NCBI GenBank assembly: GCA_020850695.1
Contig: JADZEF010000005.1
Coordinates: forward strand, 1 to 64,000
Direction of reading: 5' to 3'
From: Planctomycetaceae bacterium
GTDB lineage: Bacteria > Planctomycetota > Planctomycetia > Planctomycetales > Planctomycetaceae
Length of the DNA: 64,000 nucleotides
The position numbers and the translations under genes were made by a program. Below are positions 27,361 to 54,223 of this stretch, one piece after another (positions within the stretch are counted from its first letter, which is position 1; each line of letters starts with the position of its first letter). The notes under the pieces were generated by a model. It ran no database searches. It was not told the DNA's origin and saw only the letters and a list, made by a program, of their open reading frames with translations.

Positions 27361-28218
27361 TCAGAGCCGCGAGGTGACGACGTCGCCCTTTTTGATTGTG
27401 CCGTTTTTGTTCTTCAGCACCACCGTTCCCACCGCCTTGTCGGGCCAGACGTTCGTGATGCGGATCTTGCCCAGGAACTTCGCTTCCCCATCGGTGCGGT
27501 AGACGAAGAGCTCGTGCCCCTTGCGGATGTCGTCGTCGGTGCCGATGGAAATTTCGACGAACTCGGTTCCGCTGTTGTCGAGGCGGCGGGTCTCGACGAC
27601 TTTCCCTTCGACGGTGGTCGGCGGCGGTTCTTTGCTGACCATCGAGCGGGGGTCGGTATCGATGCCGTGCTGTTGGAGCAGTTTCTCCAGGGTGGCCGTC
27701 CGCTGCAGAGTCCGCTCGTGTTTTTCGTTCAGCGCCTTGAGGGTGACCTGCGCGACGAAATTCTTGTCCTCGAGTTCGCGGTTCGTCGCGAGGAGTCCGT
27801 CGCGCGATTCATGCAGCGTCTTGTTCTCGGCGCGCTGAACGCGGGCTTCTTCCATCCGCTGCTTCTCGCCTTCCGAAGCGATCTGGGCCTGAATCCTCTG
27901 GCTGCCGATTTCGGTTTCCAGCGTGGCATTGGCCTTCTTCTGCTGGGCGAGATTCTGCATCACGTTGTCGCGCTGCGTCTCGGCGGCTTCGGCGCGGATC
28001 TTTTCCTGGTCGCGTTCGGTCGTGCGGGCCGCGAGTTCCTGACGCAGGGCGTCCTCCTTCGTCTTGGCGTCGGTGCGGGCTTTGTCCAGATCCTTCTGAG
28101 TCGTCTCCGCCTTCACTTTCCAGTTGGACTGGGCGGTGAACACAGCGCCCGCAAATGCGATGAAGCAGATGCTGAGGACCAGCTGGAAAACGACGAGGAT
28201 TTTTCCGACGAACGTCAT
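27361..28218 (-). CDS. Membrane-anchored coiled-coil protein with C-terminal beta domain
   Basis: 285 residues. A transmembrane anchor at about 5-29 (GKILVVFQLVLSICFIAFAG) is followed by a long charged coiled coil (about 33-190). A compact C-terminal domain at about 205-285 contains EISIGTDDDIRKGHELFVYR and GKIRITNVWPDKAVGTVV, repeating a beta-strand pattern like that of flagellar or secretion-associated barrel domains. The anchor puts the coil outside the cytoplasmic membrane. GGGAG lies about 7 bases before the ATG. It follows the next gene upstream by 130 bases, same strand. No family is recognised. Confidence 0.75.
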   Translation of the reverse strand: MTFVGKILVVFQLVLSICFIAFAGAVFTAQSNWKVKAETTQKDLDKARTDAKTKEDALRQELAARTTERDQEKIRAEAAETQRDNVMQNLAQQKKANATLETEIGSQRIQAQIASEGEKQRMEEARVQRAENKTLHESRDGLLATNRELEDKNFVAQVTLKALNEKHERTLQRTATLEKLLQQHGIDTDPRSMVSKEPPPTTVEGKVVETRRLDNSGTEFVEISIGTDDDIRKGHELFVYRTDGEAKFLGKIRITNVWPDKAVGTVVLKNKNGTIKKGDVVTSRL

Positions 28219-28348: not shown

Positions 28349-29137
28349 TTATTCGGACTTCTCGTCTGTCTTTTCGGCGGCGTCATCCTTCGGCTTTTCG
28401 GCTTCCGGCTTGGCGTCCTCCGCCTTCGGATCGGCTGCGGCGTTGTCGCCGGAATCGACGGCCCCCTGGGCCTGCAACTGGGCGACGCGGCTTTCCAACC
28501 GGGCTCGGTTGCCGCGCATGCGGACGAGGAGCGATTCCAGCTGCTTCTGCTGTTCTGTCAGGCGGAATCGGTCGGTCCGCAGATTGTCGAGTTCGTTCTG
28601 AAGTCGGAAGGCGTCGTTGCGTCGGCGTTCGATTTCGGCCCCGATCGCCTGCGCTTCCTGTCCCTTGGCGATCGCTTCCTTGCTGAGTCGATCGATCTCG
28701 GCGTCCTGGGCGGTCCGCTCGTCAATCAGCGCCTTTTCGCGCTTCTTCATCGCTTCGAGATCTTTTTGATTGAAATCCTTCGCCTCGGCAATTGTCGCCT
28801 GGAGCGGCGGAATGGCGCGATCGAGCTGAGCGATTTCTTCCTGCTGGACCTTCTTCAGGTCTTCCCGGGTTTTCACGACGGCGTCGCCCAACGCGACGGA
28901 GTTCTGGGCGACGGTCTGAACGGCGGGCGCCGCTCCGCCCTGTGAGCGGGGACGCCGCGTCTTGGACGACCACGTCGGAGTCTGCCCTTCCTGCCGCGTG
29001 AACTCGTAGTCTTTGAGCAATGCGGCTTCGCCGCGCCAGTTGGGGCCGCCGGCGAAGACCACAAACACCACGCCGAGCACGGCGATGCTGATGAACGCGG
29101 TGGCCACCGCGAGCACTTTGCTGAAATTCGTAAGCAT
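28349..29137 (-). CDS. Membrane-anchored coiled-coil protein
   Basis: 262 residues. An anchor helix at about 8-29 (VLAVATAFISIAVLGVVFVV) is followed by a linker with an Arg-rich stretch (TRRPRSQGG) and a long coiled coil (about 85-225). The tail is acidic and Ala/Lys/Glu-rich (about 230-262), probably disordered. The plan parallels the downstream gene at 27361, so the two may pair. The ATG at 29137 has AAGG 6 bases upstream. The gene is divergent from the giant-protein operon, with 605 bases between starts. Confidence 0.72.
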   Translation of the reverse strand: MLTNFSKVLAVATAFISIAVLGVVFVVFAGGPNWRGEAALLKDYEFTRQEGQTPTWSSKTRRPRSQGGAAPAVQTVAQNSVALGDAVVKTREDLKKVQQEEIAQLDRAIPPLQATIAEAKDFNQKDLEAMKKREKALIDERTAQDAEIDRLSKEAIAKGQEAQAIGAEIERRRNDAFRLQNELDNLRTDRFRLTEQQKQLESLLVRMRGNRARLESRVAQLQAQGAVDSGDNAAADPKAEDAKPEAEKPKDDAAEKTDEKSE

Positions 29138-29742
29138 CAGGAACCTTCCGGCCCGGCTGCGGCCGAGGGTCGAACTGGCGGCGATGGGCCCGCGCGAGTC
29201 ATCGCAAATCGCGATGCGAAAAGGCAACTCGGGCTAAGCCTAACCCGAAAACCGATTATAGGAGTGCCGAAAAAGACGAGTCAAACAGAATCTGTCGACA
29301 GGGAAAAATGGGCGTCCCGCAACGTCGGCAGAACCGGCGCTTTCCCCACGTAGCGACCTTTACAGGTTACGCCAGCAGCGACGCGCTCGACGGAATTAAC
29401 TCGAATTCCCGCGGCGGAATGATTCAACTTTCCCGTTCCAGGAGTGGAACGGCGTACGAATCTCCGTATTCCGCAGTTTGGGAAATCCCGGCGTGTTGCG
29501 GGGGAACCGGTTTCCCCGCCAGACGTCACAAGCTATGATCGCAGTGCGCTGGCCGTTCGGTCTCCCATCGCGCTCCGTTCGACGAAATCATTCGATTTCA
29601 ACACGATCCGCCGGATCCTGTCTCTCGTCCGGTCTTGTTTCAGGGCTTCGCGTTCCGCTTGGAAGTGATCCGGCGGTCGGCAGTTTGCCTTCCGTCGGCA
29701 GTCAGCGGGCCGCCTGTTCGTCCAACTCCATCGCTCTCACAG
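29138..29742. other. Divergent control region
   Basis: 605 bases between the minus-strand coiled-coil operon and the plus-strand giant-protein operon. A perfect 10-bp palindrome CTGTCGACAG (29292-29301) is present, but nothing shows it is an operator. Short open frames on both strands are unsupported. Both promoters must lie here, so it could co-regulate the two operons. Confidence 0.45.
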
Positions 29743-32700
29743 ATGTGGCGACGTCCGCTAATTTTCGCCGCCTGGGTCGGAGTCGTGTCGTTTGGCGCGA
29801 TTCTTCCGGCTCAGGATGCGACTTCCGGAGCAGGCAATGCGGGTGCGGAGCGCCCTGCCGGCACGCCCGCGTCGGCTCCTCCCGCGCCGCGTCCCGGGAG
29901 CGATGCCACCCGCGATCTCGGCGGTGCTCCGGCACGTTCGACGGAGAGCCTGCTGCAGACAGATATCATCTACCTGCCTGGGCCCCAGGGGGACCTCGTC
30001 CCGGTCCCGCTCGATGCCGACCTGCTGGATTACCTGAAGTCCCGCCGTCCGAAGGCCGATCCGCCGCCGACTGCGGCCCCCTTTTCGATTGCGCTGGTGC
30101 AGGTCGAAGGGGAAGCGGATGAAGACCGGGCCCAGTTGACGGCCCGCATCCAGATCCAGGTGAACGTCGATCACGAGTGGGTTCGGGTGCCCCTGGCACT
30201 TCAGGATGTCGTGCTGCAAAGCAAATCTCACCAGGGGGACGGCGAGGATGCCTGGGACGGATTCGACCGCGAGGCCGGTCATCGATGGTGGTTGCGAGGG
30301 CGCGGGAAACACGAAATCGTCTGTGCGTTCTCCGTCCCCGTTCGACGCCAGGGGAGCAGCCGGCGCGTTCAGCTTTCCCTGCCCGAAGCGGCCGTGACTT
30401 CGTTTTCGCTGTCGGTTCCCGGGCAGGCGACGGCAGCCAAGGCTTTGCCGGAAGGATCCTGGGTCCGCACAACCGTCAAAGGAAGCCGCTCGATCATCGA
30501 TGCCCGTGGACGGCTCGGTCGGTTCGACCTGACATGGCAACCGGTGTCAACCGAAGAGCAGACGCAGACTGTCCTCCAGTCAGAGACCTCGATTGCGCTC
30601 GACATCTCAGAAGAGTCCCTGGTGCTGGAGGCCGATCAGGCAATCGAAGCCGTGGAAGGAAGCTTTTCCGAGATCCGCGTCCGGATTCCGGCGGGCTTTG
30701 CGTTTCTCGACGTGGAAGAGAAATACAGCCGCATCGCCTCGGCACGCGACGAAGGCCCCGACCGTCCCGACTTCATTCTTGTGCAACTCATGGAGCCGAC
30801 CAAGGGGCCGGTCTTCCTACATTGGACGCTGGCCGCTGCGTTTCCCAAGGGGACGGGCCGGATCATCGTCGACGGGTTTGAAGTTCAGCAGGCCGTGCGG
30901 CAATCGGGCGAAATTCTGATCGGACCCGCGGACGGCTTTCGAGTCACCCGGCGCGAGGGGGAGGCCGGCTATGTGCACCGCTCGCAGCCCAGTGCGGCAC
31001 GGGCGTCGAAACCATGGAGCAGCGCCTGGCGGTTCCTCAAGCAGCCGTTCAAGCTCACGCTCGATGTGCAGGAAGTGGAAGCCTATTACACGGTGGAACC
31101 GCGCTGGAAATTGCACGTCGCGGGCGCTTATGTGGAGCTCGACGGCGTCCTGCAGGTGCACGTCGCCCGTGATCGCGGCGCCGTGCAGTCGTTGACGCTC
31201 GACTGGCCCGCGTGGAAAGGGGACGGCTGGATTCTGCAGACCGTCGAAGCCCCGCAGATCATTCAACGGATCGAAGTCGAGGACGCCGACGCCTCGGCCC
31301 GCATCCGTATCCGCCTCGAGGGGAGGAAGGTCGGATCGTTCCAGGTGCCGTTCCGTGCGCGAAGGCCGCTGGCCGCCGGGACAAACGCTTTCGACGTCAG
31401 CCTGCCGGCCGCCTTGTCGTCGGCTCGAGGTCCGTCGCTCGTGGATGTCACCTGCGATGAAAACCTGGAAACCGAGGTCCGCCGCATCCCTCCGTCAAAC
31501 AACGAGGCCGTTCCCAATTCGGCTGCGGCGAATGCCGCGGCGCCCAATCCCGCACCGGCAGTGGCCGCCAATCCCGCGGCGCCGCCGGCGGCCGCCGGAG
31601 GGCCGGACAAGGAAGATCGCGCAGCCAACTGGGCTCGAACCTGGAAGCTGCGAATCGACGATGCTTCTCCGCGGCTCGCCATCCGCACGATGGCCCACGA
31701 GCGCGTCGTCCGCTGCGAATCGACCGCTGACGTCACGGTTCGCGGCGACCGGGTGGAAGTCGCGCAGCGGATGCTGTTCCGGGTGGATTACGAACCGCTC
31801 GCGAAGCTCCGGCTCCTGGTCCCGCGGCACCTCGCCGAAAATCTCGGCGTCCTCTACAACGACAAGGACGTCCTCTCGACCACTCCCGTTTCCGCCGGAC
31901 TGGAAAGCGACCCGCGCGCCGTCGTTCGCGTGATGCTGCTCGAGCCTCGGACGGGCGAATTCTCCCTGGTGGTCCGTTACAGCATCGACATTCCGCCGGA
32001 CTCGTCGAGCGATGGCCCGGTGCGAACGGGCGCTCAATTCACCGTTCCGCTCATCATTCCGGATGAGACGACCGTCACCGCGACCCGGCTGCGTCTGAAG
32101 GGAGACCAGACGCGGTCGCTCGATGTCGTCGGCACGCAATTCCAGCCGGGACCCGCCACGGCCGACTGGCATACGTACCTCGCGCCGGGAGCATTTCCGA
32201 ATGCCAGCCTTCGCACGGACGCCGTCAACCGCCGGGCGACGGGCGCGATGGTGGTGGAGCGGCTCTGGGCTCAGACGCGGCTCGATCCGTCCGGAGCGGT
32301 GGAAGGGCGGATGTGGCTGCGGGTGGACGGCGCGACACGCGTCTTTCCGTTGACGGTTCCCCCATCGGTCGAGCTGTTGCAGGTTCAATGGAACGGTGTC
32401 GAGATCGATCGACGAGTCTCCGGCAGGTCATCCAATGCTTCCGACGAAGCGGAGGCTTCACTGTTCGATCTCTTCCTTGATGACAATGACGTTTCGTCGG
32501 GCCTGCTCCTGCTGGTCTGGCAGCAGACGGGTCTCAGCCAGCCGGGACTGCTTCGCCAGCCGGAATTCCTGTTCCCGGCGCCCGAGGAAGGCATCCCCAT
32601 CCGCGAATCGGCCTGGGAATTGATTCTGCCGCAGGGCCAGCATCTCCTGACGTCGCCGGTTGGATACGCCGGCCGCTTCCGCTGGTTCTGGTCGCAAACC

Positions 32701-33357
32701 CACTTTCATCGAGTCGTTCTTCCCGAGTTCCGCTCGCCTGGCGAGTGGCTGGCCGCCGGTCTGCTCGTCTCGGGCCCACCCCGCCCCGGAGCGAGTGCGC
32801 GGACTAGTCTGACGCCTGCTGAACTCGCGCGGATCAACGACTCGCTATCCGTCGCCGGGGACGACGGGAATCACTACGTCTTCACACACATCGGCGGGCT
32901 CGGCGCGTCGTCCCTCGGCACGATCAGTTTCGCCATGCTGGTGCTGGCGGGCGCAGGAGCGGCATGGATGGGGGGATTGGTGCTGGTGAAGCTCCCCGCC
33001 GCACGGAACGCCGTGGTCATCCTTTCCGTCGGACTCGCTCTCGTGGCGATCGGTCTGGTGTTTCCGGCATCGTTCGCCCTGCTGGCTCAGCCTGCGGTGG
33101 CGGGGTTGATGCTGGCGGCGTTGATGGCGGGGCTCGAACGGATGTTGTCGCGCGATCGGGAGCCGCCGATTCTGACGATCAACGCCCCGAGCGATCCGGG
33201 CCGCGCGGCCCCGCGCGCGTCGTCCGTAGCGCGATTGAACGTGGGAGCCGGCATCCCCGAACCGACGCCCAGGTCGGACGTTTCGCGACCGGAAATCTCG
33301 CTGGGACGACCCGATCTGGCGGGCACGGGCTCGGCGGTGGGCGGAGCGCGACAATGA
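29743..33357 (+). CDS. Giant exported protein, one copy of the large module
   Basis: 1204 residues. A signal peptide at about 1-24 (PLIFAAWVGVVSFGAILPAQ) is followed by a low-complexity linker, then IIYLPGPQGDLVPVPLDADL and a long region predicted by eye to be beta-rich. A motif block near 304, GSFSEIRVRIPAGFAFLDVE, recurs in both halves of the next gene. An Ala/Pro linker lies near 590-620. Two to three membrane helices close the protein (about 1060-1135), followed by a basic tail. Most of it would therefore face outward from the membrane. No known domain is recognised. The ATG at 29743 starts the signal peptide. The stop overlaps the next start by four bases (ATGA), so the two are translationally coupled. 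Confidence 0.75.
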   Translation: MWRRPLIFAAWVGVVSFGAILPAQDATSGAGNAGAERPAGTPASAPPAPRPGSDATRDLGGAPARSTESLLQTDIIYLPGPQGDLVPVPLDADLLDYLKSRRPKADPPPTAAPFSIALVQVEGEADEDRAQLTARIQIQVNVDHEWVRVPLALQDVVLQSKSHQGDGEDAWDGFDREAGHRWWLRGRGKHEIVCAFSVPVRRQGSSRRVQLSLPEAAVTSFSLSVPGQATAAKALPEGSWVRTTVKGSRSIIDARGRLGRFDLTWQPVSTEEQTQTVLQSETSIALDISEESLVLEADQAIEAVEGSFSEIRVRIPAGFAFLDVEEKYSRIASARDEGPDRPDFILVQLMEPTKGPVFLHWTLAAAFPKGTGRIIVDGFEVQQAVRQSGEILIGPADGFRVTRREGEAGYVHRSQPSAARASKPWSSAWRFLKQPFKLTLDVQEVEAYYTVEPRWKLHVAGAYVELDGVLQVHVARDRGAVQSLTLDWPAWKGDGWILQTVEAPQIIQRIEVEDADASARIRIRLEGRKVGSFQVPFRARRPLAAGTNAFDVSLPAALSSARGPSLVDVTCDENLETEVRRIPPSNNEAVPNSAAANAAAPNPAPAVAANPAAPPAAAGGPDKEDRAANWARTWKLRIDDASPRLAIRTMAHERVVRCESTADVTVRGDRVEVAQRMLFRVDYEPLAKLRLLVPRHLAENLGVLYNDKDVLSTTPVSAGLESDPRAVVRVMLLEPRTGEFSLVVRYSIDIPPDSSSDGPVRTGAQFTVPLIIPDETTVTATRLRLKGDQTRSLDVVGTQFQPGPATADWHTYLAPGAFPNASLRTDAVNRRATGAMVVERLWAQTRLDPSGAVEGRMWLRVDGATRVFPLTVPPSVELLQVQWNGVEIDRRVSGRSSNASDEAEASLFDLFLDDNDVSSGLLLLVWQQTGLSQPGLLRQPEFLFPAPEEGIPIRESAWELILPQGQHLLTSPVGYAGRFRWFWSQTHFHRVVLPEFRSPGEWLAAGLLVSGPPRPGASARTSLTPAELARINDSLSVAGDDGNHYVFTHIGGLGASSLGTISFAMLVLAGAGAAWMGGLVLVKLPAARNAVVILSVGLALVAIGLVFPASFALLAQPAVAGLMLAALMAGLERMLSRDREPPILTINAPSDPGRAAPRASSVARLNVGAGIPEPTPRSDVSRPEISLGRPDLAGTGSAVGGARQ

Positions 33358-36300
33358 CCGTCCGCCTGACCTGCGTCGCGGCCGTCCTCCTGGGTTTCTC
33401 GACGGACTTCGTCGAACTCCCGGCTCTTGCCCAAAATGGGGCGGCTCCCGCCGCCAATGGCGATCTGCGCCGCCCGCTGTCGCTGCCACCCCTTCGGGAA
33501 GTCCATGTTCCTCGAGATCGGCTGGCCGACTGGCTTCGTTCCGGTCAGTGGTCACCCTTGAGCATCGAGGACTATCTCGCGCTGCGGAAGGCGACAGACC
33601 CTGCGGTCGAAGCTCCCGCCAACTGCTACTTCGAACGGGCCACCTACGAAGCCACGCTGGTTGACGGCGGCTTGCGTCATGGAACCTTCCGGCTAGAGGC
33701 GGTGCGCACGGCGAAAGAGGCCGCTCTGGCTTCTCTCGAACCGCACTCGTTTGTCCTGGCCGATCTCTGCTGGAGTGACGGCGCGGCGGTCTGGGGGGCC
33801 GACATTTCCGGTCGTACGCAACTCGTGGTCGATCGTCCCCGTGGTTCGCTGAGGGGGCGGTGGTCTCATGCGGGAAGAAAGCTGGCGCGGGGCGTCGTCT
33901 TCGACCTCAATTTTCCGCCGGCGTCGGCGTCGTCTCTGCTGTTGCGGATCCCGAGTGGTTTCCGGGTCAGCGCCGGCGCCGGAGATGTCCGCGGTCCGCA
34001 GCCTGCCGCGCAGCCCGGCTGGTCGCTCTGGCACATCGATCTCGGCGCGCGCAGCCAGACTCGGCTGCAGGTCTCGGCCGAAGAAGATTCTTCCACGAGT
34101 CAGACGCCGCTGGCACTCGTCCACAGCGACGTCACCTGGGACATCCGCGAGGAAGGCCTGCGATATGTCGGCCTGTTCGACATCGAGGTGGTCAGCGGGC
34201 AGGTCTCCGACCTGGAGTTCGATCTGCCCGCCGACCTGACAGTTCACCGGGTCACCTCCGGCGGAGAGGCGACGCTGGCGTGGTCGTCCGAAATGAACGC
34301 CGCGCGGCAACGCCTGAAGGTCCGGTTTCCGGAGCCGCAGCGCGGAAAACTTCGGAGCCTGCTCCTGGAAGCGACGGCGCCGGTCCGTCTCAACGAGCCA
34401 TGGCCGCTGCCTCGCGCCGAGGTCATGAAGTCGCTCTACCTCGAAGGACGCGCTGCGGTGCGCCTCGAGAACCCGCTGGAATTCCAAGGGATCACTCCTC
34501 GCGAATTCGTTCAGACGGGCATCTCGCCCAATGACGGCGAATCCGAATCCATCATCTTCCGGCAGGATACCGCATCCGCCGAGCTGGCGCTGCAACTCGG
34601 TTACCCATCGCTCGCCCTGTCGAGCCGTGTCCTCTCCGAGCTGACGCTGGCCGACGACCACTGGACCAATCGCTCGGAAATCGAATGGCGCGCCATCTCG
34701 GCCAGCACCTTTCAGGTCGCCGCCGATTTCCCGCGTGACTGGGACGTTCTCGAAGTCCGCGCGACGGGCGAGTCCGGGAAGGAGTTTCCGCTGAGGTGGG
34801 ACGTGGTCCGCAAGGTCGAGGGACGGCGACGGCTGGTCATCGACTTTGCGGAGCCGTTGACGTCCGCGGCGCCGCGGGTGATCAGCGTCGTCCTGCGACA
34901 ACTCGGTCCCTCGTCCGAAGGACTTGTGGAGCTTCCGGTGCTGAGGCCCGTCGCGGCCGCGACGCGGCACGCGGTCGTCGTCGCGTCCGAAACCACTGGA
35001 CTCCCCGAATCCAGCATCCCATGGCCGGCGGCCGGCGACGGTCTTCGCGAGTTCGAGCCTTTGCCGCTGCTGGCGGAGCTCCGCAAACGCACAACGACAC
35101 CCGCACGGGTGCTGTTCTGGACTGACGCGCCGGGGGCGGAAGGTGTCCGCTTGCGAGAGGATTCGCGCGCAGTGCGGGCGCAGACCTGGATCACCGCCGA
35201 GATTGCCGAAGACCCCGTTCGACATTCGATTGTTTGTCGCATCGATCCCGCCGGACGCGCGCTCGATGTCGTCCATGTGTACCTCACCGGGTTGCTTATC
35301 GGGGGTGACGAAGGCGATTCTCAGGAAGGCCCTGTCCATTGGCAGGGGGAAGAAGGAATGAGATTCCGAGCGACGCGGCTGGAAACCGCTCGCCACGCCG
35401 ATTGGGGACTTCCGGACACGGGTGAGCTCTGGGAAATCCGCTTCTCTGATGCTCAGTCCGCCCCCTTTCGACTCCTTGCCGCGGGATCCGCTCCTCGCAC
35501 GCCGGCGTTTCAGCCCGTCCTGGCGTTCATCCCGGAAGCCTCGCAGCTTGCGGGTGGCATCGAAATCGTCAATGCGTCGCGCCGCCGCTTCGAGATCGTG
35601 CCGCGCGGCGCAGTGCCGCTGACCGTTCCGGCAGCCAACCTCGAACGCGAACGCGTCGGCCTTCCCACGGCGACGGTCAGCCGGTCGTGGCGTTACGAGA
35701 ATCTCTCGGACCAGCTTCAGATTTCACAGGCAGAATCCGACCGCGAGGCGCCTGCCGCAGTCAAGTGCCTCTTGCGATCGCGTTGCAACGACGAGGCGCG
35801 CGCAGACCTGCATCACGCGAGTTTTCGTCAATGGGGGGGGCGCACGTCCTCGCTCCTTTCGTTCCAGCTCGCCGCGCCGGCGCGCTTGTTGTCGGTGCGG
35901 GTCGATGGCGAGCTGCTGGCGACAAGGCGGGATGAGCCGACGGGAAACTACCTCGTGCCGATGTCCGAGGATCGTCCCTGGAAAGAGCTCTCCATCGAGT
36001 ATTCGACTCCCGCCATCGAGCCCGGGCTCTGGCTGGATCGCTCAATCGTCGTCCCGCAGTTGCCGCTCGAATGCGTCGACTTTCGCTGGGAGTTCTGGCT
36101 GCCTGACGATGTCCGTCCGCAATCGGTATCCCCCGACTTGGCGCTCGTCATCCGTCCCGAGCCTCTCTCGTGGCGGCAACGCCTGTTTGGTCCATTCGGT
36201 CGAACTTCCCGCGAACGGGTCTTCGATCCGCTTCACCCGCTCCGGTCCGACGCCGCGGTCGAGAGTCTGCCGGACGCCGATGATCGAGACGCGACGGAGC

Positions 36301-39300
36301 GTCGCGGCAACGCGTCCTTGTTCGAGAATGCCGCGGGAGTGTCTCTGTTCCCGAATGACGGTTCTCTCTATGCCGCCGTCGCGCCGACGCTCCCCGCGTC
36401 GGTACAACTGACGGCCGGCCGGATGCAACTTGCCCGGACGCTGGGCGTCGCGACGCTCCTCATCACGGTTCTAACCGGCCTGAGCGTGCGCCGACTCGAG
36501 CTTCCTCGGCGGGGGGACATTGCGGCCATCGCCCTGGTCGCGGCGATGGTCGGGGCATTCCTTTGTCCCGAGGCCGTGGCCGTCATCGCAGGAAGTTGCT
36601 TCTGCGGGGCGCTGCTGGCCATTGCCATTCCGCGAACCCTGATCGTGGCATCACCGCCCAAGGCGAGCCCGTCCGGCGACGTGCCACAAGGAAGCACGGC
36701 CACCTATCACCACGTTCCGGCCGGCGTGGCGATCCTGCTCGCCTTCGGTCTGACAGTCTCCGCCCCCCGAGCCATTGCTCAACCCGAGGTTCCAAGGACG
36801 GGCGCGACCAGTCCCGGCAGCCCCGCACGACGGGACGTTCTCATCCCCTATGAAGGACGCAACCCGTCCTCTGACGATGTCCGCAAGACACGGCCCGAAG
36901 TCGTCTACGTTCCCCGCGACGTCGCGGATCGCTGGAAAACCTGGCAGGCGACCCCAGCCTCCAAGTCGTCGGTGCTCACGGCTCTGACGGCCTGTGACGT
37001 CTCGGTCGGTTCAGACGACCAGGCTCGCGCCTCATTTCAGTTCCGCGTCTCGGCGCTCGGACGCGGCGAATCGGTTCGATTGCCGCTCCGCTTCGGGGAC
37101 TTCGCGCCCCTCGGCGCCAACGCCTGCCTCGTCAACGATGTCCCGTTCCCTCTCCAGTATGACGCGGCGAACGGTTACTCCCTGATTCTGCCGCGCCCCG
37201 CCCCCCCCGCGCCGGAGTCGTCGCCAGGGATGTCCACGGCAACGGCAACCGCAACCCTCAATCCGCTCGACACCGTGACGGAATACCGCGTGTCGCTTAC
37301 CGGGTTTCTGCGGGTCCGCGTCGATCCCTCCACGTCCGAACGCAGCGCCGCTCTCCAGGTGTTACCACTTCCGGGCGTCGTCAGCGAATGGACGTTTCCC
37401 GCGGCGCAGATGCCGCTCGAGGGAATGCCGCTACGGTCGGAGGTCGTGCGTGATGCGGCGCGACTGGTGAGGTGGGAAGGGCGCACTTCCAACCTGTCGG
37501 CCCGCTGGTCCACTCATGCGGCCAAGGCCCCGCCCCGCGCCGAAGTCGAACTCCGCCTGTCACGTTTCGTGGAAGTCGCTCCCTCCGTCATCGAGATCCA
37601 CAACCGCATCGTGGGCCGCGTCCTGCGCGGCTCGCTCGACGATGTCTCGTGGCCCCTTCCTGAGGGTTCCATCGTGCAGTCGGTGGCGGGAGATCAGGTC
37701 CTCTCCTGGTCGGTCTCTGCGTCGGCCTCGGGCCCGAAGCGGCTGTTCGTCGAGTTCACGCAACCGCAGACTTCCGACTTCCGAGTCGACGTCCGGTTCC
37801 TCACGCCGGTCAACCCCAGCACTCCCGCCGCGGTCGCCCCCTGGGATGTGGAACCGGACAACGACGCCCGTCAGATCGGACGCCTCGTCCTCCGGCAGGT
37901 GGCCCTCGCGCCGCGTTCGGGATATCGAGTTGCCACCTCTCTTGTCGAGAGCGAGACCGCCCGGTCGATTCCCGTGGACACGTTCGTCCGCAATGCTTCC
38001 GATTGGGAAGCTGCGCGTCGGGCAGTCGTCGCATGGCAACTGCAGGAATCGGCGCCGGTGCCGGTTTCGTTGACGCGACTCGAACCCAGGAAGACAGTCC
38101 GCGGCGTTCAGAACGTCGTCGTCACGCCTCGTGAAATCCTGTACCAGTGGCGGGGCGAGGTCGTGACGAGCGAGTCGGTCGAGTATCGCCACACCCTGCG
38201 GGTCGATCCCCGGATTCAGATCGAATCGATCGGCGTGGTCGAGGATCAGGCCAATCGCCTCTCGCGGTGGACCCGGGTCGGAGACCGCCTGGTGGTCACG
38301 CTGAATGCGGGAACATCCGGGACGCAGGATGTCACACTGGTGGGTCGACTCCCCCTGGCGTCGCTTGGGGACGTTCCGCTTCCCCTCGTGAGACTCGACG
38401 ATGTGTCCGCCTCGGACCTGCGTCTGAGCATTTCCACCACTCCGGATCTGAACGTCGAACTGGTCGAACCGGCGCCACTTATTCCATTCGCCACCCCGCT
38501 GGAAGCCGCCGTCGCTCCTCCCCCCGACGCATCCGCGGGCCCCCGCGCCGAGGCGCACGTTTTCGGCCACTATCAGGTGTCCGGCGAGGGAGAGGCCCGG
38601 CTGCACGTTCAACGCAGCACCGACCGGCCAACGCTGGAAATCGTTTCTCACGCCCAGCCTTCCCGGACGGACCTGCGTTGGTCCGCCGCGATGCGATTCG
38701 ACGACCTTCATGGCCAGCCGCGCTACGCTCGATTCGTGGTCAGCGGCGTCCCAGCGAAGAACCTCACGGTCAGATCGCTGCCGGTCCTCGAACCGAAGCT
38801 GGCCGACGTCGTCGACGGCGTCCAGGTCGAGTTTCCCACGATGTCGCCGGAACTCGAGACATTGAGGGTCGAGGTCGAAGCCAACCTTCCCATCGCGGCC
38901 GGCGCCGACCCCCTTCTGCCGGTCCTCCAAACGGACTGCCGCCTGATCGCCCACTGGTACATGGCGGGCCGTTCCGAGCTGCTTTACCCCGCCCGCGAGA
39001 GCGCATCTCCCGCGGACGCCGCGGAGTTGCCGCCATGGCATCAGCCGCCCCGTACGGACGCCGCCGGAACGCTCGCGTTCCGGTTCAAGTCTCCGGAAGC
39101 GCGGCTTCAATGGAGGCTCTCCGCCGAGCCCAACGGCATCCGGGTCCTGGCGGCCCGCACCGAGCTGTCCTGGACATCCTCCGGAACTCCATTCGCCCGC
39201 ACCATCTGGCGAATGGCCCCCGGTGCGGGGACGGTCGCGTCCGTCGACTGGCCGGAAGGAGCGACAATGCGGAATGCCGTCGCGGACGGTAAGGCTCTTG

Positions 39301-40148
39301 CCGTGGCCTCCGACAACGATGGCCGCCGCCTGCAACTGATGTTTCCCGCCGGCTCGGAACCGCACGTTCTCACGCTGGAATGGTCGCCGGGGGCCGTCCA
39401 CTTCCCATGGGTCGGCTCCATGCAACTCGACCTGCCACACCTCCGAAGCCTCTCGCTCATCGATCACCTCGTCGTCGTCCGCTCGCCGCCCGACGAACTC
39501 CTTCGCTCATCGAGCGACATCCCCTCCCTCACTCGCGCCGAAAGGCTTTCCCGCGAAATCGTGAGCTGGTCGAAGAACTCGTCCGACGCCAACGCGCCGC
39601 CGCTCTCAACCGCCGAAATTCGCACGACGATCGAACTTGTCCGCGCTCTTCACGCCGAACTCGACCGAAACGCGCGAGCGTTCTCCCGGGACGAAGTCCA
39701 GTCATGGCGATCGATCGCCGCCGAGGCCCGTGCAACGCTCGAACGCGTCGTTTCCGAAGACGGGGGGGCGTCGGCCCTTCAGAGCACTCTCTCACAGATT
39801 CCCGTCGTTCCGGGACGTGACACGACGACCGGTAGAGAACTGGCGATCATTGTCGAGTCAGCCGCTCCGGCGATGGTCAAACTGTCCGGGGTCGATCGGC
39901 GGCTGATCTCGGTTCCGCTGGTGCTGGCGGCGGCGGCGTTGTTTGCCGTTCTGGCGGCGCGGCTGCTCCGCTCGGGCGCCGTTCCATGGGTCAGACATCA
40001 CCGCAATGTCGCCTGTCTGCTCATTGGCATGGTCTGGTGGTTCGCCCTCCAATTCAGCGGGCTCGGATTCCTGTTCCTTCTCGCGGCGATGGCCCACATC
40101 CTCCGCCAGCTGCTGCATCGTCCTCGCGCGCGTGAGATCCACGTCTAA
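33354..40148 (+). CDS. Giant exported protein, two tandem modules
   Basis: 2264 residues. A signal peptide (about 1-28) leads into module one, with its motif near 282 (GQVSDLEFDLPADLTVHRV). A cluster of helices lies near 1026-1105 (LGVATLLITVLTGL, DIAAIALVAAMVGAFL, then another). A second signal-like helix at 1125-1140 (GVAILLAFGLTVSAPRAIAQ) is followed by module two, with REPEAT-like entry PEVVYVPRDV and its motif near 1426 (GSLDDVSWPLPEGSIVQSV). Two C-terminal helices end it (about 2184-2205 and 2219-2250). The internal membrane cluster and signal-like helix look like the junction of two fused ancestral genes. The ATG at 33354 overlaps the previous stop. Function unknown. Confidence 0.78.
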   Translation: MTVRLTCVAAVLLGFSTDFVELPALAQNGAAPAANGDLRRPLSLPPLREVHVPRDRLADWLRSGQWSPLSIEDYLALRKATDPAVEAPANCYFERATYEATLVDGGLRHGTFRLEAVRTAKEAALASLEPHSFVLADLCWSDGAAVWGADISGRTQLVVDRPRGSLRGRWSHAGRKLARGVVFDLNFPPASASSLLLRIPSGFRVSAGAGDVRGPQPAAQPGWSLWHIDLGARSQTRLQVSAEEDSSTSQTPLALVHSDVTWDIREEGLRYVGLFDIEVVSGQVSDLEFDLPADLTVHRVTSGGEATLAWSSEMNAARQRLKVRFPEPQRGKLRSLLLEATAPVRLNEPWPLPRAEVMKSLYLEGRAAVRLENPLEFQGITPREFVQTGISPNDGESESIIFRQDTASAELALQLGYPSLALSSRVLSELTLADDHWTNRSEIEWRAISASTFQVAADFPRDWDVLEVRATGESGKEFPLRWDVVRKVEGRRRLVIDFAEPLTSAAPRVISVVLRQLGPSSEGLVELPVLRPVAAATRHAVVVASETTGLPESSIPWPAAGDGLREFEPLPLLAELRKRTTTPARVLFWTDAPGAEGVRLREDSRAVRAQTWITAEIAEDPVRHSIVCRIDPAGRALDVVHVYLTGLLIGGDEGDSQEGPVHWQGEEGMRFRATRLETARHADWGLPDTGELWEIRFSDAQSAPFRLLAAGSAPRTPAFQPVLAFIPEASQLAGGIEIVNASRRRFEIVPRGAVPLTVPAANLERERVGLPTATVSRSWRYENLSDQLQISQAESDREAPAAVKCLLRSRCNDEARADLHHASFRQWGGRTSSLLSFQLAAPARLLSVRVDGELLATRRDEPTGNYLVPMSEDRPWKELSIEYSTPAIEPGLWLDRSIVVPQLPLECVDFRWEFWLPDDVRPQSVSPDLALVIRPEPLSWRQRLFGPFGRTSRERVFDPLHPLRSDAAVESLPDADDRDATERRGNASLFENAAGVSLFPNDGSLYAAVAPTLPASVQLTAGRMQLARTLGVATLLITVLTGLSVRRLELPRRGDIAAIALVAAMVGAFLCPEAVAVIAGSCFCGALLAIAIPRTLIVASPPKASPSGDVPQGSTATYHHVPAGVAILLAFGLTVSAPRAIAQPEVPRTGATSPGSPARRDVLIPYEGRNPSSDDVRKTRPEVVYVPRDVADRWKTWQATPASKSSVLTALTACDVSVGSDDQARASFQFRVSALGRGESVRLPLRFGDFAPLGANACLVNDVPFPLQYDAANGYSLILPRPAPPAPESSPGMSTATATATLNPLDTVTEYRVSLTGFLRVRVDPSTSERSAALQVLPLPGVVSEWTFPAAQMPLEGMPLRSEVVRDAARLVRWEGRTSNLSARWSTHAAKAPPRAEVELRLSRFVEVAPSVIEIHNRIVGRVLRGSLDDVSWPLPEGSIVQSVAGDQVLSWSVSASASGPKRLFVEFTQPQTSDFRVDVRFLTPVNPSTPAAVAPWDVEPDNDARQIGRLVLRQVALAPRSGYRVATSLVESETARSIPVDTFVRNASDWEAARRAVVAWQLQESAPVPVSLTRLEPRKTVRGVQNVVVTPREILYQWRGEVVTSESVEYRHTLRVDPRIQIESIGVVEDQANRLSRWTRVGDRLVVTLNAGTSGTQDVTLVGRLPLASLGDVPLPLVRLDDVSASDLRLSISTTPDLNVELVEPAPLIPFATPLEAAVAPPPDASAGPRAEAHVFGHYQVSGEGEARLHVQRSTDRPTLEIVSHAQPSRTDLRWSAAMRFDDLHGQPRYARFVVSGVPAKNLTVRSLPVLEPKLADVVDGVQVEFPTMSPELETLRVEVEANLPIAAGADPLLPVLQTDCRLIAHWYMAGRSELLYPARESASPADAAELPPWHQPPRTDAAGTLAFRFKSPEARLQWRLSAEPNGIRVLAARTELSWTSSGTPFARTIWRMAPGAGTVASVDWPEGATMRNAVADGKALAVASDNDGRRLQLMFPAGSEPHVLTLEWSPGAVHFPWVGSMQLDLPHLRSLSLIDHLVVVRSPPDELLRSSSDIPSLTRAERLSREIVSWSKNSSDANAPPLSTAEIRTTIELVRALHAELDRNARAFSRDEVQSWRSIAAEARATLERVVSEDGGASALQSTLSQIPVVPGRDTTTGRELAIIVESAAPAMVKLSGVDRRLISVPLVLAAAALFAVLAARLLRSGAVPWVRHHRNVACLLIGMVWWFALQFSGLGFLFLLAAMAHILRQLLHRPRAREIHV

Positions 40149-49827: not shown

Positions 49828-51341
49828 ACGCCGTAGAGCGGTCCGAACTTTCGCCACAGGTGGTCGATCAGCGGTTGCGGGCTGAGTTTCTCGCCCGTCA
49901 CCATCTCGACCAATCGTTGCGGACGGTACTGCTTCCCCTTGTGGTGAATGTGCTTGTTGAGCCATTCCTTGAGAGGCTGGAATTCGCCTTTGGCGAACTG
50001 GCCTTCCAGTCCGCCGAGGTCGCGGTCGGCGGCGTTATAAAGTTGAGCGGCGTACATGTTGCCGAGGGCGTAGGTCGGGAAGTAGCCGAGCATCCCTCCC
50101 GACCAGTGGACGTCCTGGAGGCATCCGCGACGATCGTCCGGCGGAACGATGCCGAAGTATCGCGTGAATGTCTCCGTCCAGACAGTCGGGACGTCGGCCG
50201 GGTTCAGGTCGCCCGAGATGAGCGGCTGTTCCAACTCGAACCGCAGCATGATGTGCAGGTTGTACGTCACTTCATCCGCTTCGACGCGGATGAACGACGG
50301 ACGCACGTCGTTAATTGCTCCGTAGAAGTCGCACAGGCTGACGGTGCCAAGAGCATCGGGGAAGTGGGCCTGGGCCTGCGGGTAGAAGTGGGACCAGAAC
50401 GGCCGGCTGCGTCCGACGAAGTTCTCCCACATCCGCGACTGCGATTCGTGGATACCAAGCGAGACGGAGTCGCCCATCGGCGTTCCGTACGCGCCGCGAT
50501 CGAGCCCCTGCTCGTACATCCCGTGACCCGCTTCGTGAAGCACGCCGAAGAAGGCCTCGGGGAAGTGGTTTTCGTTGTACCGCGTCGTGAGACGGCAATC
50601 GCCGGGACCGATCCCGTTGCAGAAAGGATGGGCGGTGACGTCGAGCCGGCCCGCCTCGAAGTCGAAGCCGATCCGCTTGGCGACATCGGTCGCGAAGACC
50701 CGCTGTGCTTCGACGGGGAAGCGGCGGTGGAGGATCATCACGTCGGGCTTCTTCGAAGCGCCGGCGATGGCGGCCACCATCTTGACGAGGGCCTCGCGGA
50801 GCGGGGTGAAGACCGCCTGGACGTCGCCGACTTTCATCCCCGGCTCGTACTCGTCCAGGAGGGCGTCGTAGGGGACGCCGCCGTCGAAGCCGATGCAGCG
50901 GGCTTCCTGCCGTTTCAACTCGACGATCTTTTCGAGCCACGGCCGGAACTGGGCGAAGTCGGACGCTTTCCGGGCCTTCACCCAGGCCTGCTGTCCGAGT
51001 GACGTCACGCGCGACAACTCTTCGACCAGCGACTTGGGGAGCTTGGTGGCGCGATCGTAGTAGCGGCGGGCTTCGCGAACGTTGACCACCGGAGCCGAGT
51101 CGGGTTCGCCGAGATCGCTGCGCTGACCGAGTTCGCCGAGGAGTTCGCCGACGCGGGGGTGCGTCGCCCGGTCGTGAATCATTCCCGCAAGGAGACCGAG
51201 CTGGTTCGAACGATGCTCGGCCCCCTGCGTCGGCAGGTAAGTCTGCTCGTCCCAGCCAAGGACATTGACGCACGAACCGAGAAGCGACGTTTCCTTGAGA
51301 CGACCGACCAGTTCCTGATACAGCTCCGCCGTAGCCGCCAT
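49815..51341 (-). CDS. M32-family metallocarboxypeptidase
   Basis: 508 residues. The zinc motif is HEAGH at 269-273 in FGVLHEAGHGMYEQG, and the family sequence GDCRLTTRYNENHFPEAFF lies just before it. FVGRSRPFWSHFYPQAQ and DEVTYNLHIMLRFELEQ match the M32 (Taq) signatures. The enzyme removes C-terminal residues from peptides in the cytoplasm. Length is usual for the family. ATG 51341, with GGAG about 10 bases upstream, trims the open frame. It is divergent from the BatA-like gene. Confidence 0.92.
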   Translation of the reverse strand: MAATAELYQELVGRLKETSLLGSCVNVLGWDEQTYLPTQGAEHRSNQLGLLAGMIHDRATHPRVGELLGELGQRSDLGEPDSAPVVNVREARRYYDRATKLPKSLVEELSRVTSLGQQAWVKARKASDFAQFRPWLEKIVELKRQEARCIGFDGGVPYDALLDEYEPGMKVGDVQAVFTPLREALVKMVAAIAGASKKPDVMILHRRFPVEAQRVFATDVAKRIGFDFEAGRLDVTAHPFCNGIGPGDCRLTTRYNENHFPEAFFGVLHEAGHGMYEQGLDRGAYGTPMGDSVSLGIHESQSRMWENFVGRSRPFWSHFYPQAQAHFPDALGTVSLCDFYGAINDVRPSFIRVEADEVTYNLHIMLRFELEQPLISGDLNPADVPTVWTETFTRYFGIVPPDDRRGCLQDVHWSGGMLGYFPTYALGNMYAAQLYNAADRDLGGLEGQFAKGEFQPLKEWLNKHIHHKGKQYRPQRLVEMVTGEKLSPQPLIDHLWRKFGPLYGVGRE

Positions 51342-51415
51342 GAGTCGCTGCGCTCCGCAAGTTTTGACGAAAGAGGAACCCGCATTGTCACCGCACGCCG
51401 CGGGAAGGCAAGGGA

Positions 51416-51454
51416 CCAAAGTCGCCCTCATGCTCCGCATGAGGGCGACTTTGG
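51416..51454. repeat. Short hairpin, CCTC...GAGG family, copy 4
   Basis: A perfect 18-bp stem, CCAAAGTCGCCCTCATGC, with loop TCC (51416-51454). Compared with copy 2, the pairs in GTAGCC/GGCTAC are changed to GTCGCC/GGCGAC on both sides. It lies in the 151-base divergent gap upstream of the BatA-like gene, so it may be transcribed into that gene's leader. Confidence 0.85.
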
Positions 51455-51492
51455 GGACTGCCGCACGGCGGTTCGTCCGCTACAATCGGAAC

Positions 51493-53934
51493 ATGACCTT
51501 TGCGCATCCGTGGCTGCTCGGCTTCCTGGGGCTGATCGCGATCCCGATCATCCTGCACTTTCTGCTGCGCCAGAAGCCGAAGAAGCTGCTGTTCCCCGCG
51601 CTCCGCCTGATCCAGAAACGGCAGCGGAACAACGTGCGCCGGATGCGGTTGCGTCACATCTGGCTGATGCTTCTGCGAATTCTGGTGATTGCCTTTCTCG
51701 TCCTGGCGGTGGCCCAGCCGAAGCTCCCCGCTGCCGACTACGGCCTGACGAACGCGGAGATCGCTCGACTGGCGGCTATTGGCGTTGCGGCGGTCGGGGC
51801 GTACTTCGGGCTGATGCACCTGTGGAAGCGGAGACGGCTCGCCCACAGCGACCTCGCTTACCGGCGGTCGCTATTGCGGGGCGGGACGGGTGTTGGCGTC
51901 CTGGTGCTGCTGTTGCTGCTCGTGATCTGGCCTTATTGGCGGCGGATTGATGCGGAGCTTTCGGCCCCGCAGCCACCGGCGAAGGAAGACGCACCCGTCG
52001 CGGCGGTGTTCCTGTTCGACACCAGCGCCAGCATGGAGTATCGCCTGGAGAGTCGCACGCGGCTGGAGCAGGCGCAGCGGGTGGCTGAAGAGTTTCTGGA
52101 AAGCCTTCCGCCGCGAAGCCGCGTGGCGGTGGGGACATCGTCGGACGACGGGCAGGTTCTGTTTCAGGCCGATCTCACGAGTGCCCGCAACCGCATCAAA
52201 TCTCTGAAGACGACCCACGCGAGCCTTCCGTTGAGCACGCGGGTGCGGACGGCGCTGTTGGTGCAGGAGGAGGACAGGCGGCGGACGCTCGATGCGGACG
52301 CGTCGACTCCCGAGGATCAGCGCGAGGACGGGTTCCTGCGCGAGATCTATGTCTTTACCGACATGGCCCGCACCGCCTGGCGCGAGGACGACTCGAAGCA
52401 GTTGCAGTCGGAAATGACGCGGATGCCGTGGGCGAGCGCGTACCTTATTGATGTGGGGGTCGAGCGCCCCACTAACGTCGCGATCTCGGGGGTGAAGCTC
52501 TCGCGGCAGACGGTTTCGGAGGGGAGCGAACTGGTCGTCGAGGCGGCGCTCGATGCGGTGGGCGTGGAGAGTGCGGCGCGGACGGTCGAGCTCTATCTCA
52601 ACAGCGAGCGGGGCCCGGTCAAGAAGGGGCAGAGTACCATCACCGTCGACACGCAGGCGGGGGCAAAGGTCGCATTCACGATTCCCGGCGTCAAAGGACC
52701 GCTGGCCCAGGGGGAAGTGCGGTTGATCTCGAGCGACCCGCTTCCGGGCGATGACGTGCGTTACTTCACGGCGGCGGTGAAGCCGGTTCCCGAGATTCTG
52801 CTGGTGAGCGAGTCGGCGGACGATGCGGCGTATCTGCGGCTGGCCCTCGCGCCGACCGATCTCGAGCAGAGCGGCAAGGCCCGTTACAAGTGCCGGGTCG
52901 TCCGCCCCGTGCAGTTGGAGTCGACCAATCTCGATGCCTATGAGGCGGTCTGCCTCATCAACGTGCGGGAGCCGTCGACGAAAGCCTGGGACGCATTGAC
53001 GAAGTATGTGTCGGCCGGCGGGGGGCTGGCGGTGTTTCTAGGGAGTCCCCGAATTGAATCGGAGTCGTATAACTCACCGGCGGCCCGGGCGATTCTGCCG
53101 GTCGAGTTGCTTGCCCAGCTGGGGTTTCGTGGCGATGTGTTCCTCGACCTGCAAAACCTGGCGCATCCGATTCTGAAGAAGTTCGATGAGCTGGGCGGGG
53201 CCGGGGAACTGACGGCGTCGAACGTCTATCGGCACTGGAAGACGCTGCCGGTGGAAGGGGCGACGGTCATCGCTTCCTATACCGATGGCCGCGAGACGCC
53301 CGCGTTAGTGGAACGCCCGTTCGGCCAGGGGCGGACCGTCGTCCTGACGACGTCGGTCGATCTGGGCGGATGGAGCGAGATTCCGCGCTCGTGGCAGTTC
53401 GTGGTTCTCGCCGACCAGATGATGCAGTATCTCGGCCGCGTCGGCGAAGGGGTCTATAACTATTCGGCCGGCGAGGGGGCGGTGCTGCCGCTCGATCGCC
53501 GGAAGCCGCTGACTGAGTATCTACTCCGGACTCCGGCTCTGGAGCAGCTCCCCGGGAAGGTCGCGGCCGATGCCCGCTTTGTGACGATCGACAAGACCCC
53601 GCAAGCGGGACCGTATGAACTTGAGGGGACCGAGACGAAGGAGCCATACATCACGGGGTTCAGCGTGAATGTCCCGGTCGGTGAAAGCGATTTCACGCGG
53701 CTGATCGATGCGGACCTTGAAGTCTATTTCGGCAAGGACCGGTATCGCGTGGCGAAGGACCTCGGCACGCTGCAGCGGATCGTGACGACGGGACGGAAGG
53801 GGGAAGAGATGTTCCCGTTTGTCGTGGCGTTCCTGATTGCGGTATTTGTGGGCGAACATCTGGCGGCGAATTTCTTTTATGAAGCGGAGCAAGCGGGTCC
53901 GGCGACGCCGAGACGGCAGCCGGAGGGTGCGTGA
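51493..53934 (+). CDS. BatA/VWA-type membrane protein
   Basis: 813 residues. The N-terminal BatA segment is MTFAHPWLLGFLGLIAIPII, then a basic loop and further helices near 56-75, 92-113 and 134-151. A von Willebrand factor A domain starts near 170, with an intact MIDAS FLFDTSASMEY (D-x-S-x-S). A class I amidotransferase-like fold region follows (about 430-560, LLVSESADDAAYLRLALA). A C-terminal helix lies near 770-795. Such proteins act in metal-dependent complexes at the membrane; the partner AAA (MoxR) ATPase is not in the window. The next gene is of the same type and strand, 290 bases on. Confidence 0.85.
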   Translation: MTFAHPWLLGFLGLIAIPIILHFLLRQKPKKLLFPALRLIQKRQRNNVRRMRLRHIWLMLLRILVIAFLVLAVAQPKLPAADYGLTNAEIARLAAIGVAAVGAYFGLMHLWKRRRLAHSDLAYRRSLLRGGTGVGVLVLLLLLVIWPYWRRIDAELSAPQPPAKEDAPVAAVFLFDTSASMEYRLESRTRLEQAQRVAEEFLESLPPRSRVAVGTSSDDGQVLFQADLTSARNRIKSLKTTHASLPLSTRVRTALLVQEEDRRRTLDADASTPEDQREDGFLREIYVFTDMARTAWREDDSKQLQSEMTRMPWASAYLIDVGVERPTNVAISGVKLSRQTVSEGSELVVEAALDAVGVESAARTVELYLNSERGPVKKGQSTITVDTQAGAKVAFTIPGVKGPLAQGEVRLISSDPLPGDDVRYFTAAVKPVPEILLVSESADDAAYLRLALAPTDLEQSGKARYKCRVVRPVQLESTNLDAYEAVCLINVREPSTKAWDALTKYVSAGGGLAVFLGSPRIESESYNSPAARAILPVELLAQLGFRGDVFLDLQNLAHPILKKFDELGGAGELTASNVYRHWKTLPVEGATVIASYTDGRETPALVERPFGQGRTVVLTTSVDLGGWSEIPRSWQFVVLADQMMQYLGRVGEGVYNYSAGEGAVLPLDRRKPLTEYLLRTPALEQLPGKVAADARFVTIDKTPQAGPYELEGTETKEPYITGFSVNVPVGESDFTRLIDADLEVYFGKDRYRVAKDLGTLQRIVTTGRKGEEMFPFVVAFLIAVFVGEHLAANFFYEAEQAGPATPRRQPEGA

Positions 53935-53950
53935 TGGATCTCTTTACGCC

Positions 53951-54151
53951 TTTACGCCGAAGGCGTTATATCCGATAGCCCAGGGTCGCGAGGCTTTGCG
54001 AGCGCGCCCTGGGTTGCGGCAAAATGAGCAGGAACCCCGACGGGGTTCTATGAATGGAGCGCGATAGACGCTGACTATGGAACCCCGTTGGGGTTCTGAA
54101 TTCCATCGTATCGCGACCCTGGGCTATCGGATGCAACGCCTTCGGCGTAAA
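53951..54151. repeat. Nested palindromic element, copy 2 (201 bp)
   Basis: Outer arms of 41 nt (53951-53991 and 54111-54151) are inverted copies with two differences. They start TTTACGCCGAAGGCGTT and contain CCCAGGGTCGCGA. Inner arms are GGAACCCCGACGGGGTTC and GGAACCCCGTTGGGGTTC. It is related to the copy at 42034-42270, but the segment between GCCGAAGGCGTT and CCCAGGG differs in matching positions on both arms. It lies between the two BatA/VWA genes. Confidence 0.9.
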
Positions 54152-54223
54152 GACAGGGGCATCACAGCCGGTTGTTGCACTCTCTTCCGTAGTCCTTTCT
54201 GACGCTGGAGTTGTCGTTCCCGG

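Follow-up and report, generated by a model that had tools for sequence, protein, structure and literature searches.

Ribophorin I (OST1) of eukaryotes contains two similar luminal beta domains (PMC7226087). It is a single subunit in which these tandem, mainly-beta domains are followed by one C-terminal membrane helix, and it has no catalytic site. The N-terminal domain of M1 aminopeptidases (LTA4H, PepN, ERAP1), also present in TAF2, is a saddle-type beta-sandwich, combined in the aminopeptidases with a catalytic domain and a zinc motif. Chains of beta domains occur as well in integrin alpha chains and in the inter-alpha-inhibitor heavy chain (VIT domain). With respect to coding arrangement, the cytochrome b/c1 precursor FbcH of Bradyrhizobium is encoded by one gene and processed at an internal signal peptide into two membrane-bound partners.

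The window, i.e. the whole stretch of 64,000 nucleotides analysed here, comes from an 8.6 Mb planctomycete genome and encodes two giant proteins, P1 with one large module and P2 with two (P2a, first half; P2b, second half). Each module starts with a signal peptide, continues with about five repeats of a beta-sandwich domain and ends in three membrane helices. The modules share with ribophorin I the tandem mainly-beta domains, the C-terminal membrane anchor and the lack of a catalytic site, but have about five domains and three helices instead of two and one, and exist as three paralogues. They lack both the catalytic domain and the zinc motif of M1 aminopeptidases, repeat the domain about five times and have no Pfam match. 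Integrin alpha and inter-alpha-inhibitor heavy chains resemble them in Foldseek as beta-domain chains, with low TM-scores (0.08-0.22), no sequence match, and no evidence in the modules of a propeller or I domain. P2 is unrelated to FbcH; its halves are paralogues of a separately encoded third protein, P1, and its cleavage would be of the same kind. The features of the locus, for which signal peptides were called from hydropathy and motif rather than with a trained predictor, are as follows.

29743-33357, + strand: P1, single-module protein, 1204 aa (ORF; conserved in the family)
29743-29811, + strand: predicted P1 N-terminal signal peptide, residues 1-23, cleavage after LPA|Q (hydropathy, family profile)
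29968-29997, + strand: P1 module entry motif IYLPGPQGDL, residues 76-85
30082-32889, + strand: P1 array of about five beta-sandwich repeats, approximately residues 114-1049 (self profile comparison, AlphaFold2 model, M1 N-domain match on repeat 5)
30658-30696, + strand: P1 second motif GSFSEIRVRIPAG, residues 306-318, within repeat 2
32929-33150, + strand: three predicted P1 C-terminal membrane helices, approximately residues 1063-1136 (family hydropathy; helices at 1028-1101 in the model)
33354-40148, + strand: P2, double-module protein, 2264 aa (ORF; overlap sequence)
33354-33431, + strand: predicted P2 N-terminal signal peptide, residues 1-26, cleavage after ALA|Q (hydropathy)
33498-33533, + strand: P2a entry motif EVHVPRDRLADW, residues 49-60
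33624-36422, + strand: P2a array of about five beta-sandwich repeats, approximately residues 91-1023 (profiles, model, M1 N-domain match on repeat 1)
34197-34235, + strand: P2a second motif GQVSDLEFDLPAD, residues 282-294
36423-36626, + strand: three predicted P2a membrane helices, approximately residues 1024-1091 (hydropathy, model)
36708-36779, + strand: internal signal-peptide-like helix of P2, residues 1119-1142, ending AIA|Q (conserved in P2 homologues; split orthologues start with separate signal peptides here)
36897-36935, + strand: P2b entry motif EVVYVPRDVADRW, residues 1182-1194
36930-39878, + strand: P2b repeat array, approximately residues 1193-2175 (homology to P1, profile comparisons)
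37629-37667, + strand: P2b second motif GSLDDVSWPLPEG, residues 1426-1438
39900-40103, + strand: predicted P2b C-terminal membrane helices, approximately residues 2183-2250 (hydropathy; three by analogy, the third being presumed)

Both ORFs, reported by the first-pass annotation from the letters alone, were confirmed, with ATG start codons at 29743 (P1) and 33354 (P2). The P2 ATG overlaps the P1 stop codon in the sequence ATGA, as had been noted when the two genes were described as coupled, and overlaps of 1 or 4 bases were found in 24 of 55 adjacent pairs of module genes. Scans of P1 and P2 gave no Pfam family at E values up to 1 and nothing above noise in NCBIfam; 28 P1 homologues matched no M1 family in Pfam, and their profile found nothing above noise among PDB sequences, in keeping with the earlier description of the family as unrecognised. 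The matches of P1 homologues to DUF5693, DUF7139, TgpA_N and other Pfam entries (E 0.003 or worse), and the sole PDB sequence match, viral glycoprotein B (E 0.44), were dismissed as noise. Records with homologues of P1 and P2 are named Schlesneria or Planctomycetaceae. No counterpart of the family was found in text passages of a paper on planctomycete surface proteins (PMC8567305) or of one on planctomycete essential genes (PMC10632474).

P1, P2a and P2b are full-length collinear homologues. Profiles built from alignments of 26-29 homologues of each module matched end to end in all three pairwise comparisons (P1 and P2a, E 8.3e-34 over 945 columns; P1 and P2b, E 2.5e-37 over 978 columns; P2a and P2b, E 2.7e-27 over 982 columns), while the best E value with one profile column-reversed was 0.0045. 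The motif block that had been picked out by eye is real, its quoted motifs lying at matching places in all three modules, and the spacing from the entry motif to the second motif is nearly equal (230, 233 and 244 residues in P1, P2a and P2b, respectively). Models of P1 and P2a were predicted independently from separate alignments of ten sequences, with moderate confidence (mean pLDDT 67-68, pTM 0.33-0.34); both are all-beta with three C-terminal helices, and their secondary structure is the same at 74.7% of aligned positions, compared with 47 +/- 3% when the alignment is shifted by 10-60. Chance similarity of motifs was rejected given the profile-profile matches and this agreement of the models. 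The proposal of three copies of one large module is thus borne out by the profiles, the P1 and P2a models and the tree described below, the membership of P2b resting on profiles and tree.

Comparison of each profile with itself gave offsets of about 165-190 residues and multiples thereof in all three modules, with E values as low as 6e-17 in P1, which indicates about five repeats per module. The N-terminal domain of M1 aminopeptidases matched repeat 5 of the P1 model (Z 13.9, rmsd about 3.2, about 168 residues) and repeat 1 of the P2a model (Z 13.8, rmsd 2.9, 159 residues), i.e. the saddle-type beta-sandwich was found in one repeat per predicted model. Across LTA4H, PepN, ERAP1 and TAF2, the fold is that of at least these two repeats, with Z 13.8-14 and rmsd 2.9-3.5 over 157-172 residues. 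In Foldseek, ribophorin I/OST1 chains ranked first for the P1 model (E 1.7e-10), whereas for the P2a model integrin alpha chains came first and ribophorin I behind them (E 4.5e-6). Because chains of beta-sandwiches give many such matches, an M1-N-type fold is likely for the repeats, and we take the likeness to ribophorin I as architectural resemblance, not kinship; the P1 profile had no ribophorin I sequence match in Pfam or PDB, and its arrangement of two luminal beta domains and one helix is not that of the modules. The P1 and P2 sequences contain neither HExxH nor GAMEN, so peptidase function was rejected.

The membrane helices said to close each module are supported by hydropathy and, for P1 and P2a, by the models, and the predicted topology places the bulk of each module facing the periplasm. 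This agrees with one half of the suggestion of a secreted or periplasm-facing surface assembly; the other half fits less well, since three C-terminal membrane helices anchor each module, making an inner-membrane-anchored periplasmic complex likelier than a secreted or outer-surface one.

P1 was present in 132 of 134 genomes and 49 of 50 genera of the window's family, and modules were detected in 61 of 195 genomes sampled evenly across the phylum. P1 alone as a query against genome contigs gave no match, whereas a 6-sequence profile did find homologues. The only family genomes without any P1 match, G007 and G242, form genus g8 and offer a natural loss for comparison. Module genes were adjacent and on the same strand in 52 loci, mostly with three modules in total. 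In L103 and L104, the modules are encoded by consecutive single-module genes (1128, 1237 and 1138 aa, and 1202, 1419 and 1470 aa, respectively), each starting with its own signal-peptide-like segment. Among the 101 modules placed in a tree, those of the family and of its class-level relatives fell into three clades, P1, P2a and P2b, with support of at least 0.997, and the split genes 1, 2 and 3 grouped by position with P1, P2a and P2b, respectively, together with fused L115 and its kin, though some branches are weak. As these distant three-gene orthologues follow the order P1, P2a, P2b, P2 appears to be two genes in a single frame, much as the first-pass annotation had guessed from its internal membrane cluster.

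Several family genomes carry, beside the first pair, a second, longer paralogous pair of about 1130-1250 and 2660-2890 aa, termed system B (e.g. L066, L072, L079, L080, L113); ParA-like genes lie just upstream of it in L066 and L072. Other arrangements were two single-module genes, not three modules, in L107 (4488-13019), and one long module protein adjoining a VWA/YfbK gene without a separate P1 in L114 (4923-11564) and L128 (1-5517). P1 lies apart from P2 in G026 and stands alone in G021. L108 (1394-16723) has module genes in the order one, two, one on the same strand, the last at the contig end; this is possibly two tandem sets, since the last gene (L108_g4) groups with P1 in the tree. In L112 (G213:C37), the genome search matched modules and the gene calls there matched no module profile, probably a gene-calling artefact or very divergent modules.

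The signal-like helix reported at the P2 junction is conserved and bears a signal-peptidase-type site. An xAQ directly follows it in 16 of 26 P2s (p about 8e-11 against P2 composition), and an AxA-like site is present in all 26. At the predicted N-terminal signal peptides, xAQ was found in 21 of 29 P1s and 11 of 26 P2s; at membrane helices used as controls, it was found in 0-3 of 24-29 sequences. Several P2s of system B and of distant genomes likewise have AxA or AxAQ-like endings at this point (e.g. L066, L076, L108, L110, L113, L120). With three P2a membrane helices ahead of it, the junction helix would have its start on the cytoplasmic side, correctly oriented for a second round of export. 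By hydropathy and motif, P2 has an internal signal peptide with an AxA site in the correct topology, as in a signal-peptidase-processed polyprotein. The simplest reading of the junction would be that P2 is cut in two, and signal peptidase probably performs this cut, yielding a three-chain complex.

No evident partner gene was found at the window locus. The upstream neighbours of P1 are two divergent proteins (27361-28218 and 28349-29143, - strand), alike by eye, each with an N-terminal membrane helix and coiled coils. Farther away, at 51340-56497, a BatA/VWA_2 protein followed by a GATase1-like protein forms a Bat-type cluster, taken as unrelated given its distance from P1 and P2. Elsewhere, in about ten distant genomes, a VWA/YfbK protein gene adjoins the modules, in most cases accompanied by an ECF sigma factor and an anti-sigma domain. 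In loci from other families of the phylum, an ECF sigma gene and a gene with vWF_A, VWA and YfbK_C domains lie directly upstream of the modules. Both genes are present in L105, L110, L114, L116, L117, L121 and L131 (the sigma genes of L114 and L131 being called by our own profile only), and L128, L138 and L140 have the VWA/YfbK gene only (own profile), the last two beginning near it and L128 ending near it. The zf-HC2 anti-sigma domain of Pfam scored in L105, L114 (below the curated cut-off), L117 and L121; it had no match in L110 and L116, although the L110 N terminus looks alike. Complete VWA/YfbK proteins have a single membrane helix near the N terminus, at approximately residues 108-162. 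These operon neighbours suggest an envelope-sensing or scaffold role for the modules. They are absent from the window locus: no ECF sigma or anti-sigma gene was among the genes scanned around P1 and P2, and YfbK_C was not found in the window's genome, so that the link to sensing does not hold generally. Among the genes that neighbour the modules in the family, those for inositol monophosphatase, prepilin peptidase, HtrA and UppP look like shared synteny, and a functional connection with them was rejected.

We consider it slightly better than an even chance that P1 and P2 give rise to a three-subunit, inner-membrane-anchored periplasmic scaffold or sensing complex, with P2 as a polyprotein. The proposal builds on the module homology, repeats, export signals, membrane helices, split orthologues, conservation and operon links described above; cleavage, assembly and role are deduced from these. 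Three paralogous subunits would come from two genes, each entering the Sec pathway via its own signal peptide and placing about five tandem M1-N-type beta-sandwich domains in the periplasm, followed by three membrane helices and a cytoplasmic tail. P2 would be made as one chain, in which the middle signal peptide could restart export because the three helices of P2a lead the chain back into the cytoplasm. Cutting by signal peptidase I would then release two subunits in equal amounts, and the three subunits would assemble. The arrays may act as a non-catalytic scaffold or envelope sensing arm, which in some lineages may report to an ECF sigma factor via the membrane-spanning VWA-domain protein, mostly with an anti-sigma domain.

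P2 might instead remain uncut, with the middle helix as an ordinary fourth membrane helix in one chain bearing two periplasmic arrays, the fusion fixing stoichiometry and order only. The topology needs a hydrophobic helix there anyway, and L051, L074 and L118 show no obvious signal-peptidase site at the junction; yet a small-x-small-Gln ending is unneeded in a plain membrane helix and is enriched only at the junction helix and at true N-terminal signal peptides, and we judge an uncut P2 unlikely, though still a serious contender. We regard it as improbable that the modules build an adhesin, a fibre base, a crateriform pit component or some other secreted or cell-surface structure. Many Planctomycetota live attached, and exported long arrays of beta-sandwiches do resemble integrin alpha chains in Foldseek, but the three conserved helices with cytoplasmic tails anchor each module, and Pfam scans revealed no outer-membrane anchor, sorting signal or adhesin domain.

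Distinctly improbable, in our estimate, is that the modules are ribophorin I-like accessory subunits of an enzyme that modifies proteins or glycans, holding substrate beside a GT-C glycosyltransferase. Ribophorin I/OST1 being the best Foldseek match of P1, and also found with P2a, speaks for such a role, as do PMT-family (GT39) genes upstream of P1 in L073, L078 and L120 and UppP adjoining P2 in nine family loci. Against it, no more than three of about 60 loci have a glycosyltransferase neighbour, the UppP gene is convergent and its proximity looks like shared synteny, ribophorin I differs in its numbers of domains and helices and has no sequence match, and its ranking is not specific, because integrin alpha chains score better with P2a. 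We give almost no credence to degenerate M1 aminopeptidases, i.e. leftover arrays of N-terminal domains without a function of their own: the repeat fold does match M1 N-terminal domains (Z about 13.8, rmsd 2.9-3.3), but M1 catalytic domain, HExxH and GAMEN are absent, and near-universal conservation across the family indicates selection.

Taken together, these observations describe a hitherto undescribed module present in three copies, two of them within one gene. More tentatively, and with rather more doubt than belief, we raise the wider possibility that the three subunits form a giant envelope machine kept across the phylum, with about fifteen ribophorin/M1-N-type domains, two subunits deriving from a polyprotein cut by signal peptidase, and that in some lineages this machine provides an ECF sigma system with a periplasmic arm for sensing or scaffolding. 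With ECF sigma and VWA genes as neighbours, the function of the modules can be put to the test. Should the internal signal peptide of P2 prove to be a cleavage site, P2 would provide a clear example of a bacterial polyprotein with wide conservation, whose naturally split and fused forms can be compared. With about 3,470 residues of envelope protein that is near-universal and lacks annotation, P1 and P2 mark a large blind spot in a bacterial group known for its unusual cell biology.
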